Positions 24,139 through 27,369 of a stretch of 64,000 bases of DNA are shown piece after piece. The first letter of the stretch is position 1, and each line of letters begins with the position of its first letter. The position numbers were made by a program, and so were the translations under genes. The DNA comes from Bosea sp. 124 (GTDB lineage Bacteria; Pseudomonadota; Alphaproteobacteria; Rhizobiales; Beijerinckiaceae). The notes beneath the pieces were generated by a model. It was not told where the DNA came from and made no database searches. It saw nothing but the letters and a program-made list of their open reading frames with translations. The stretch is from positions 3,737,001-3,801,000 of the forward strand of contig NZ_PZZM01000001.1 of assembly GCF_003046175.1 (NCBI RefSeq). The letters are read 5' to 3'.

Positions 24139-24221
24139 GCCTGACGGGTTGAACCCAAAAGCCGCTCTCAGGCGTTTCGCTTTCCGACCCTTCCCCAATC
24201 CCTTCAATCGAGGTGCGTTTC

Positions 24222-24776
24222 ATGGCTCCGTTCAAGCTCGCCATCATCGTCGGCAGCAACCGCAAGGCGTCGATCAACCGCAAGCTGGCGCAGGCGCTCG
24301 CCAAACTGGGCAGCGCGTCCTTCACGCCGCATTTCGTCCAGATCGATGATCTGCCGATGTACAATCAGGATTTGGAGGCGGCTGCCTGGCCGCAGGCGGC
24401 GACGCGGCTGAAAAGCGAGATCGAGGGCGCCGATGCGGTTCTGGTGGTGACGCCCGAGCACAACCGTTCGATCCCCGCCGTGCTCAAGAACGCGATCGAC
24501 TGGGCGGCGCGGCCGTCCGGCAAAGGCGTCTGGGGCGGCAAGGCTGCCGCGATCATCGGAACCAGCCCCGGCGGCGTCGGTACCGCCTGCGCCCAGCAGC
24601 ATCTGCGCGACATCCTCGGCAATCAGGGTGCGCTGGTGATGGGCGGGCAGATGTTCATCACATGGAAGGACGGGCTGGTCGACGACACCGATGCCATTCC
24701 CAATGACGCCACGCGCGCGTTCCTGCAGACATTCATGGAGAAGTTCGCGGGGCTGGTCGGGAAGCTCGCCGCGTAA
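24222..24776 (+). CDS. NADPH-dependent FMN reductase family protein
   Basis: 184 residues, flavodoxin-like fold. IIVGSNRKASINRKLAQAL is the phosphate-binding loop of the family, followed by DDLPMYNQD, VLVVTPEHNRSIPAVLKNAIDW and a GGKAAAIIGTSPGGVGTACA segment. Such enzymes reduce quinones, azo compounds or other acceptors with NADPH and bound FMN. The ATG at 24222 has a GAGG 7-10 nt upstream; a GTG at 24213 is possible but less likely. Confidence 0.88.
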   Translation: MAPFKLAIIVGSNRKASINRKLAQALAKLGSASFTPHFVQIDDLPMYNQDLEAAAWPQAATRLKSEIEGADAVLVVTPEHNRSIPAVLKNAIDWAARPSGKGVWGGKAAAIIGTSPGGVGTACAQQHLRDILGNQGALVMGGQMFITWKDGLVDDTDAIPNDATRAFLQTFMEKFAGLVGKLAA

Positions 24777-24922: not shown

Positions 24923-24957
24923 AAAAAAAGGGCCGGCGTCCCGCGAGGGAGCCGGCC
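24923..24957 (-). terminator. Strong intrinsic terminator of the sRNA (minus strand)
   Basis: On the minus strand: stem GGCCGGC (24957-24951) and GCCGGCC (24937-24931) with an inner TCCC/GGGA pairing, one C spacer, and a run of seven T (24929-24923). On the plus strand only TTT follows the hairpin, so the direction is minus. Confidence 0.8.
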
Positions 24958-25063
24958 TTTAAAGTTTGAAACATCTGGCGCAAATGCCAAACATCTCAGA
25001 GGGGAACGGCTGAAACGAACTCGATGCCGGGAGGAGATAGCAGAGCCCGTTCCGAACAACCGT
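24923..25063 (-). ncRNA. abcR: Candidate AbcR-like (alpha-r15-type) trans-acting small RNA
   Basis: A predicted minus-strand transcript of about 141 nt with no convincing reading frame. Reading 5' to 3': a 7-bp stem GGAACGG (25053-25047) with CCGTTCC (25009-25003) enclosing a large loop that exposes CTCCTCCC (25036-25029), a perfect anti-Shine-Dalgarno motif; then a small TGGC/GCCA hairpin; then the terminator hairpin with seven T. It has its own promoter (25070-25098). It lies downstream of, and on the same strand as, the LysR gene next to trxB. In Sinorhizobium and Brucella, AbcR sRNAs (alpha-r15 family), which repress many transporter mRNAs, are encoded near or controlled by the LsrB/VtlR regulator. 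The family assignment is inference from structure, motif and context; no covariance search was possible. The exact start is estimated from the -10 box. Confidence 0.72.
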
Positions 25064-25069
25064 GATTGC

Positions 25070-25098
25070 TATATCGGGCAGCAGGTGCCTTTTTGCAA
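25070..25098 (-). promoter_or_regulatory. Promoter of the candidate sRNA
   Basis: On the minus strand TTGCAA (25098-25093), a 17-nt spacer and GATATA (25075-25070). Both boxes agree reasonably with alphaproteobacterial sigma-70 promoters, and transcription would start near 25063, immediately before the sRNA stem. Confidence 0.6.
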
Positions 25099-25122
25099 TG
25101 CAGCATAGCTTGGGTCCGCCAT

Positions 25123-25155
25123 GCGCCAATTGCATGCATTGCAATCAATTGGCGC
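25123..25155. promoter_or_regulatory. Perfect 10-bp palindrome upstream of the sRNA promoter, candidate LsrB/VtlR site
   Basis: GCGCCAATTG (25123-25132), 13 nt, CAATTGGCGC (25146-25155). Its centre is about 76 nt upstream of the predicted sRNA start, the usual place for a LysR activator's binding site. No other gene begins nearby on either strand, so the sRNA is the obvious target. Confidence 0.55.
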
Positions 25156-25339: not shown

Positions 25340-26260
25340 TCAATAGGTCCAGCGCTGCGCCTTCTGGATCAGGAAGTCGCGGAAGACCTGCACACGGGCA
25401 ACGGACTTCATCTCTTCCGGATAGACCAGATAACTCTCGAGCTGTGGCATCTCGGTCTCGCGCATCAACTGCACCAGAGGCGATCCGGTCTCGATCAGGT
25501 AGTCCGGCAGCACGGCGATGCCGGCCCCCGAATCGACGGCGCGCTTCATCGCGGTGATGTTGTTGACCGTCAGATGAATCGGACGGGGGTTGCGCGGGTC
25601 GCGCCCGAGCGTGCCCAGCCAGTGGACGGCGGTCAGGTAGGAGGGCGACGTCCCGCCGAAGCTGAGCAGGCGGTGGTTGTCGAGATCCTCATAGGTCTTC
25701 GGCTCGCCGAAGCGCTTCACATAGGCCGGCGATCCGTAGACGTGGAAGTGGACCGTGAAGAGCTTGCGCTGGATCAGGTCCGGCTGCTGCGGCTGGCGCA
25801 GACGGATCGCGATGTCGGCCTCGCGCATCGAGAGGTCGAGTTCCTCGTCGGTGAGGATCAGGTCGACCTTGATGTCTGGGTAGAGGTCGAGGAATTCGGC
25901 CAAGCGTGGCGTCAGCCAGTGCCCGCCGAGACCGCGGGTCGCGGTGACCTTGAGCTCGCCCGAAGGGTGCTCGCGCGTCTCCGAGAGCTGCGAGCGCGTC
26001 CGTTCGAGGCGCTGCGTCATCTCGCGTGCGGCACGCCACAGCAGTTCACCCTGCTCGGTCAGGATCAGACCGCGCGTATGGCGATGAAACAGCGGTGCAC
26101 GCAATTCGCGCTCCAGCGCACCGATCTGGCGGCTGACGGCGGATTGACTGAGGCCGAGAACATCGCCAGCTTTGGTGAAGCTGCCGGACTCGGCGACCGT
26201 ATAAAAGATCCTGATGCGGTCCCAATCCACCGCGCTTCCCCCGTTATGCGTTTGACGCAT
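25340..26260 (-). CDS. lsrB: LysR-family regulator, LsrB/VtlR-like
   Basis: 306 residues. The winged helix-turn-helix is near the N-terminus (VDWDRIRIFYTVAESGSFTK then LGLSQSAVSRQIGALERELR) and a substrate-binding domain follows. The start WDRIRIF and the placement downstream of trxB on the same strand are as in rhizobial lsrB and Brucella vtlR, which control envelope, redox and sRNA genes. The ATG at 26260 is used; a GTG at 26230 just before DWDRIR is the alternative. The intergenic region downstream holds the candidate AbcR-like sRNA. Confidence 0.85.
   Translation of the reverse strand: MRQTHNGGSAVDWDRIRIFYTVAESGSFTKAGDVLGLSQSAVSRQIGALERELRAPLFHRHTRGLILTEQGELLWRAAREMTQRLERTRSQLSETREHPSGELKVTATRGLGGHWLTPRLAEFLDLYPDIKVDLILTDEELDLSMREADIAIRLRQPQQPDLIQRKLFTVHFHVYGSPAYVKRFGEPKTYEDLDNHRLLSFGGTSPSYLTAVHWLGTLGRDPRNPRPIHLTVNNITAMKRAVDSGAGIAVLPDYLIETGSPLVQLMRETEMPQLESYLVYPEEMKSVARVQVFRDFLIQKAQRWTY

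Positions 26261-26373: not shown

Positions 26374-27369
<996 letters not shown>

Follow-up and report, generated by a model that had tools for sequence, protein, structure and literature searches.

The window, that is, the whole 64,000-nt stretch of Bosea sp. 124 DNA that we analysed, carries on its minus strand trxB, a regulator gene of the vtlR/lsrB type and, after a gap of 276 nt, a short unit that very probably makes an AbcR-type small RNA (sRNA). The loci are as follows.

24923..25063, minus strand: AbcR-like sRNA gene, with a predicted transcript of about 141 nt (fold, sub-threshold match to RF02345, conservation in Bosea with covariation)
25340..26260, minus strand: LysR regulator of the vtlR/lsrB type (LysR-family models match, none above its curated cut-off)
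26374..27339, minus strand: trxB, thioredoxin reductase (TIGR01292 above its cut-off)

The coordinates and strand of the unit had been proposed in a first-pass annotation made from the letters alone, and the sequence bears them out; its placement beyond the 3' end of the LysR gene adjoining trxB, in the same orientation, was confirmed by the reading frames and profile matches. As to the accompanying statement that no acceptable reading frame covers the unit, several mechanically called frames overlap 24923-25063, on both strands, but the Bosea sRNA alignment contains indels of 1-2 nt, which argue against a protein-coding role. The next frame that we take as a gene (24213-24776, plus strand) is convergent to the unit. 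At the gathering threshold, the Rfam search of the whole window gave a single match, to ffh RNA (RF01793; 2989-3041, plus strand, 58.3 bits), and not the sRNA unit.

Folded as the minus strand, the unit reaches -61.9 kcal/mol, far more stable than chance (z -5.03), with none of 200 shuffled sequences folding as well. Its parts are listed below.

25006..25063, minus strand: SL1, the 5' hairpin presenting anti-Shine-Dalgarno (anti-SD) motif 1 (minimum-free-energy structure; helices 1-2 of the Bosea alignment)
25029..25036, minus strand: aSD1 CUCCUCCC in the SL1 loop (same 8-mer as aSD1 of Sinorhizobium meliloti AbcR1/2)
24999..25006, minus strand: aSD2 UUCCCCUC, open between SL1 and SL2 (same 8-mer as aSD2 of S. 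meliloti AbcR1/2)
24967..24998, minus strand: SL2, the second hairpin (minimum-free-energy structure; helix 3 of the Bosea alignment)
24923..24957, minus strand: Rho-independent terminator, a hairpin followed by seven T (sequence; helix 4 of the Bosea alignment)

aSD1 is unpaired with a probability of 1.0, and aSD2 is unpaired at 0.97 or above at every base except the first. Presentation of the anti-SD sequence CTCCTCCC in a loop (25036-25029) and a short second hairpin, both part of the original description, are found in this fold. The GC-rich terminator with seven T is likewise present at 24957-24923, although our terminator scan did not report it. The description erred in the 5' stem, given as GGAACGG/CCGTTCC: forcing that stem costs about 7 kcal/mol (-54.8 versus -61.9 kcal/mol), and one of its seven pairs is broken in 10 of the 21 aligned Bosea copies. 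The supported partner of the GGAACGG arm is CGTTTC, which covaries with it (column pair 14-53: AU 7, GC 6, GU 6, CG 2, broken 0), and in the favoured fold one part of CCGTTCC belongs to the base of SL1 and the other to the open aSD2. The correction matters because the rejected stem would hide part of aSD2.

Conservation of the interval in related genomes, named in the first-pass annotation as a check, was confirmed: at the DNA level, 33 of the 36 other genomes of the genus conserve the sRNA block, the remaining three harbouring a diverged copy (42-46 bits, two genomes) or a weak 22-bit match. This genome has a single copy; two or three are found in 3 of those 36. The vtlR loci nearest to that of the window belong to Bosea, at 94-99% identity, and GTTCCCCTCTG (at most one mismatch) lies downstream of vtlR in all 40 Bosea-clade vtlR loci. 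Among 80 vtlR loci, a set that overlaps with the 36 genomes, the RNA was detected by motif or model in 54, and 26 have nothing above 17 bits. Within an alignment of 21 Bosea copies (A2, which includes two extra copies, L033 and L034), standard pairs occupy 98.1% of the pair cells and 6 of 45 pairs show changes on both sides, a number reached by 0 of 500 shuffles. Compensatory changes affect SL1 (column pairs 14-53 and 24-41) and the terminator (three pairs of helix 4 changed on both sides), and the cells of SL2 are 100% paired. A wider alignment of 32 copies from several genera (A1), including Chelatococcus, Camelimonas and an Alsobacter-like genome, shows both-sided change in 13 of 29 predicted pairs; SL2 was not recovered in its consensus because it is not alignable between genera.

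AbcR1 and AbcR2 target substrate-binding-protein (SBP) genes, and a similar action is predicted for the Bosea RNA from complementarity. Four Pfam families gave 108 domain matches, from which we took 80 SBP genes (all of PF13458 and PF00497, the best 24 of 41 for PF00496 and the best 20 of 31 for PF13416) and analysed 79, one gene (at L163) being dropped as its start ran off the retrieved stretch. The controls were 370 genes from 20 hand-picked stretches and the window, and gene starts came from a home-made routine. At least six contiguous nucleotides complementary to aSD2 were found in the start regions of 39/79 SBP genes versus 44/370 controls (p 1.5e-12), a difference reached by 0 of 300 shuffled motifs (2 of 300 for 7-mers). 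With no prior motif, AGGGGA, which is complementary to aSD2, came out as the most enriched of 269 six-mers before SBP genes (23/79 versus 6/370, p 4.7e-14). These contiguous-match and k-mer tests were chosen after a weak result with duplex energies over the whole start region: those of aSD2 separate SBP genes from controls weakly (p 0.018) and show no difference after adjustment for SD strength (0.01 kcal/mol; shuffled motifs as good in 2 of 60), and those of aSD1 do not separate the two sets. The aSD1 complement is not clearly enriched before SBP genes as 6-mers (27/79 versus 97/370); its 7-mers occur in 12/79 versus 25/370 (p 0.017, or 0.1 when SD-matched). Other parts of the RNA show mild 5-mer enrichment, namely the 5' stem (p 0.0067) and SL2 (p 0.035, SD-matched).

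The AGGGGA signature might instead reflect the way Bosea translates its exported binding proteins, with no part played by RNA pairing. SBP genes do have stronger SDs than controls (-8.5 versus -6.6 kcal/mol), and the SBP_bac_5 genes of RNA-bearing genomes outside Bosea are richer in ordinary AGGAG/GGAGG sites (12/30 versus 3/30 in genomes without the RNA). However, the aSD2 6-mer matches persist among genes with SD energies of -6.5 or lower (36/67 SBP versus 25/184 control), sequences complementary to the 16S tail show no enrichment before SBP genes (6-mers in 7/79 versus 49/370), and control genes with a predicted signal peptide, as called by a crude filter that accepts 58/79 SBPs, have a match in 8/62 cases. 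The signature is also scarce where the RNA is not detected. In SBP_bac_5 genes outside Bosea, target matches were found in 15/30 for five genomes with the RNA (30 of the 64 matches listed) and in 1/30 for five without a detectable copy (30 of 33). After removal of weak SDs the figures are 14/25 versus 1/18 (SD energy of -6 or lower) and 12/23 versus 1/13 (-7 or lower). In this comparison, 'without' means no match at E 0.001 to R1, a model that we built from the Bosea copies and their neighbours, with weak matches of up to 23 bits present; the five genomes concerned represent one genus and several of their gene starts look miscalled, and one of the five RNA-bearing genomes, G097, has 0/6 target matches. 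Taken with the matched counts, we regard an explanation by translation habits as rather unlikely. In the literature searched, no report of AbcR1 with AGGGG-type SDs was found.

Upstream of the unit, we identified the following elements.

25070..25099, minus strand: promoter core TTGCAA-N17-GATATA (sequence; consensus of 39 distinct Bosea promoters)
25121..25135, minus strand: candidate VtlR operator ATGC-N7-GCAT (conservation of Bosea promoters)
25098..25106, minus strand: ATGC-T-GCAT, which extends into the -35 region and may supply further half-sites (sequence; largely kept in the Bosea consensus)

The promoter with a 17-nt spacer proposed earlier is present, with its -35 TTGCAA at 25098-25093 and its -10 GATATA at 25075-25070, and it is conserved in Bosea, but a strict sigma-70 scan did not report it. 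In the alphaproteobacterial register (after PMC8844928) it reads ATTGCA-N17-CGATAT. The ATGC-N7-GCAT pair occurs in 32 of the 39 distinct Bosea promoters (shuffled mean 0.08), in 5/5 extra copies (their five places are spread over three named plasmids and a contig that bears a RepA-like gene) and in 12/35 other promoters. The LsrB/VtlR box published for the region upstream of abcR1, GCAT-N3-TG-N3-T (PMC8844928), was found in 14/35 non-Bosea promoters, at -58 to -60 in 13 of them, and in 0/39 distinct Bosea promoters. The looser arrangement of GCAT followed by TGC 7-8 bases on is present in 32/35 distinct non-Bosea promoters, nearly all at -58 to -60, and in 2/39 Bosea promoters, both at other positions. 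This promoter set left out L077-L082, L086-L089, L091, L152 and one of each L084/L085 tandem pair. The GCAT of the Bosea pair roughly coincides in position with the beginning of the LsrB box of other families, and we read the half-site pattern as a candidate rewired operator, to which VtlR would bind; ATGC-T-GCAT may provide further half-sites. A 10-bp inverted repeat upstream of the promoter (25123-25155, GCGCCAATTG...CAATTGGCGC) was dropped as an operator because relatives do not keep its outer arms.

The RNA could also be a processing product of the 3' part of the trxB-vtlR transcript, with no promoter of its own and the same terminator. It lies on the same strand 276 nt downstream of vtlR, and the sole intervening terminator-like site that the scan reported (25195-25183) is short and at shuffle level (1 found, mean 1.0). 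Nevertheless, the -35 and -10 elements and the upstream half-sites all stand in the consensus of the 39 distinct Bosea promoters, and copies exist on plasmids and far from vtlR, so the unit can stand alone. We consider processing improbable, and infer transcription from the unit's own promoter.

The search with the Rfam alpha-r15 (ar15, RF02345) covariance model, another of the checks named at the outset, gave a full-length match in register at 24927-25061, though at 25.7 bits (E 0.0044), both locally and genome-wide, it falls below the gathering score of 40 bits. No other match at E 0.1 or lower was found in this genome. The match alone is weak because sub-threshold ar15 matches also occur in 3 of 14 well-known control genomes. 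Both anti-SD 8-mers are identical to those of S. meliloti AbcR1/2, where these motifs were shown to act (PMC8844928). With R1, relatives were detected in 98 Hyphomicrobiales genomes, counting this one, out of 297 searched, and in 44 of 123 genera. The ar15 threshold is passed by L031 (both copies), L126, L133 and L137, and failed by the other 16 of 20 loci tested. VtlR relatives, present in 276 of the 297 genomes, precede the sRNA in the same orientation at 31 of the 33 loci tested (L035 and L146 are the same place). Considering the 74 of 98 R1 genomes with both positions among the matches listed, the sRNA follows vtlR in the same orientation, at a distance of at most 800 nt, in 53, with a median gap of 258 nt (for G086, the vtlR-adjacent copy was chosen among three); in the other 21, the two are split over contigs (nine) or placed elsewhere (twelve). 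In Agrobacterium, the gene order is trxB-vtlR-abcR1-abcR2 (PMC7486931).

A different anti-SD sRNA might have come to resemble AbcR by convergence on CU-rich loops. The missed ar15 threshold is consistent with this, as are the anti-SD loops of other rhizobial sRNAs (PMC3927594; NfeR1, PMC8844928). Against it, the two motifs keep both their order and their structural context, the RNA gene is often linked to vtlR, and intermediate copies fit the Bosea-based model and pass the ar15 threshold as well, making convergence very improbable. Still less likely is that the unit acts in cis, as a leader or attenuator, or is a conserved terminator with no function of its own: the terminator is strong, but the next gene frame is convergent, so the unit leads nothing on its strand, and SL1, SL2 and both anti-SD motifs are no less conserved than the terminator.

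Given the shared 8-mers, the R1 relatives, the loci that pass the ar15 threshold, the vtlR linkage and the order known from Agrobacterium, the unit is, on sequence grounds, AbcR-type by descent and forms a divergent branch outside the curated ar15 boundary; it is not ar15 as Rfam defines it. The AbcR-like interpretation given in the first-pass annotation is thus supported by the ar15 match in register, the identical 8-mers and the trxB-vtlR-sRNA order, as well as by the family copies that pass the ar15 threshold and the target signature of SBP genes. Our preferred reading, to which we attach a probability of roughly 0.86, is that of a trans-acting sRNA of the AbcR (alpha-r15) type, of a divergent branch, that would be activated by VtlR and repress SBP translation through aSD2. 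VtlR, encoded just upstream, probably activates the sRNA promoter, and the RNA probably binds Hfq, the gene for which is present in the genome. The open UUCCCCUC would pair with AGGGGA-type ribosome-binding sites of SBP genes of ABC importers, perhaps together with CUCCUCCC of the SL1 loop, and block their translation; the complementarity is observed, and repression would follow from it. Active VtlR would hence lower nutrient uptake, the AbcR-type RNA probably turning import down.

This reading can be set against known systems. Like AbcR1/AbcR2 of Sinorhizobium, Agrobacterium and Brucella, the Bosea RNA has three hairpins, the last being the terminator; as in S. meliloti, aSD1 is in the 5' loop and aSD2 is single-stranded between hairpins 1 and 2, and as in Agrobacterium and S. 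meliloti, the gene adjoins vtlR/lsrB. It differs by its score below the Rfam threshold, by its greater length (135 nt matched by ar15, versus 112-113 in L031) and by the 6-mer of motif 1, CUCCCG in Bosea versus CUCCCA or CUCCCC in AbcR (PMC5461406). Whereas alpha-r15 is said to be always multi-copy in Rhizobiaceae and Brucellaceae (PMC3712013), the Bosea genome has one copy. With the VtlR/LsrB-AbcR1 circuit of Agrobacterium and S. meliloti, the unit shares a GCAT half-site some 60 nt before the transcript start and, in the case of Agrobacterium, the trxB-vtlR-sRNA order; the Bosea promoter lacks the GCAT-N3-TG-N3-T box, its half-site being paired upstream instead, and Bosea VtlR lacks the redox cysteines. 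NfeR1 of S. meliloti is also an anti-SD sRNA acting on transporter messages, as predicted for the Bosea RNA, but it has three identical anti-SD motifs in 115 nt and is contrasted with the Hfq-binding AbcR1/2 (PMC8844928). No report of AbcR in Bosea was found in the literature searched, to which most subscription papers did not belong, and AbcR1 in other families is not named among the literature matches listed.

The VtlR protein of the window shares 54.7% identity over 300 aligned residues with the LysR protein beside the ar15 copies of L031, a Rhizobiaceae-like locus. Three cysteines are found in the latter protein, occupying positions 144, 244 and 273 of its matched stretch. For LsrB, a role as thiol redox sensor has been described, with C144/C273 as a conserved pair and C273 needed for peroxide resistance in Agrobacterium tumefaciens (PMC11975290). 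Both of these switch cysteines are absent from Bosea VtlR. Counted on tblastn-matched stretches (25343-26260 in the window and 111 relatives), from which terminal residues can be missed, no cysteine is present in 41/41 Bosea-clade proteins, including that of the window, and in 54/71 others. Judging from these stretches, the LsrB thiol switch therefore cannot operate in Bosea, whose VtlR is devoid of cysteine.

Searches of PLSDB revealed the sRNA sequence on three Bosea plasmids, in four places, with no feature annotated under each best place.

L154, 6001-6202: plasmid copy
L155, 6001-6207: plasmid copy
L156, 6001-6172: plasmid copy
L157, NZ_CP126308.1 near 181,200: plasmid copy

Two of the three plasmids are typed as conjugative, and the copies keep the ATGC-N7-GCAT half-sites. 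Two copies are flanked on one side by repABC and a gene for acyl-homoserine-lactone synthase and on the other by a type IV secretion cluster; one adjoins a MucR-type gene. A 207-base query from L031 (ar15 copy and promoter) matched 385 of 72,556 plasmid records; in 90 of these the match covers 80% or more of the query. The 385 records are mostly from Rhizobium, Agrobacterium and Sinorhizobium, some being chromosome-sized, indicating that plasmid-borne relatives are common among the Rhizobiaceae-like group.

In the sources consulted, AbcR has been studied in a few symbionts and pathogens and tied to host interaction and, via LsrB, to redox sensing. Its occurrence in soil bacteria outside those families, together with the regulator and the target signature, suggests that its basic job is the control of nutrient uptake. 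We tentatively propose, at somewhat less than even odds, that trxB-vtlR-abcR is an old, order-wide nutrient switch with an SBP regulon written in AGGGGA (versus AGGAGG), that redox sensing came later, in Rhizobiaceae and Brucellaceae, that the operator was rewired in Bosea and that plasmids carry spares. If so, spare RNA copies could retune nutrient import in a new host. The Bosea RNA thus stands as a divergent form, present once in this genome, whose target signature can be read and whose regulator arm is rewired and free of cysteine: the AGGGGA signature lets an AbcR regulon be read from sequence, the present ar15 boundary in Rfam misses many relatives, and a VtlR devoid of cysteines questions the generality of the LsrB thiol switch.

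Other arrangements were observed across the order. In two Chelatococcus loci (L084, L085), tandem copies about 249 nt apart lie downstream of vtlR, as in S. meliloti and Agrobacterium. In seven genomes of one genus, the RNA is in every case 21.8-26.8 kb from vtlR, which suggests one old rearrangement; G263 and G282, which belong to the same genus, have RNA and vtlR on separate contigs. Ten non-Bosea members of the family to which Bosea belongs keep a VtlR relative and have no clear RNA. Five of these RNA-less genomes were looked at for SBP_bac_5 genes: four have 3-6 and the fifth 16, and this genome has 41. Lastly, our start routine points to a possible GTG start of vtlR near 26230, preceded by GGGGGAA, a six-base match to aSD2, so the RNA could conceivably feed back on its own regulator.
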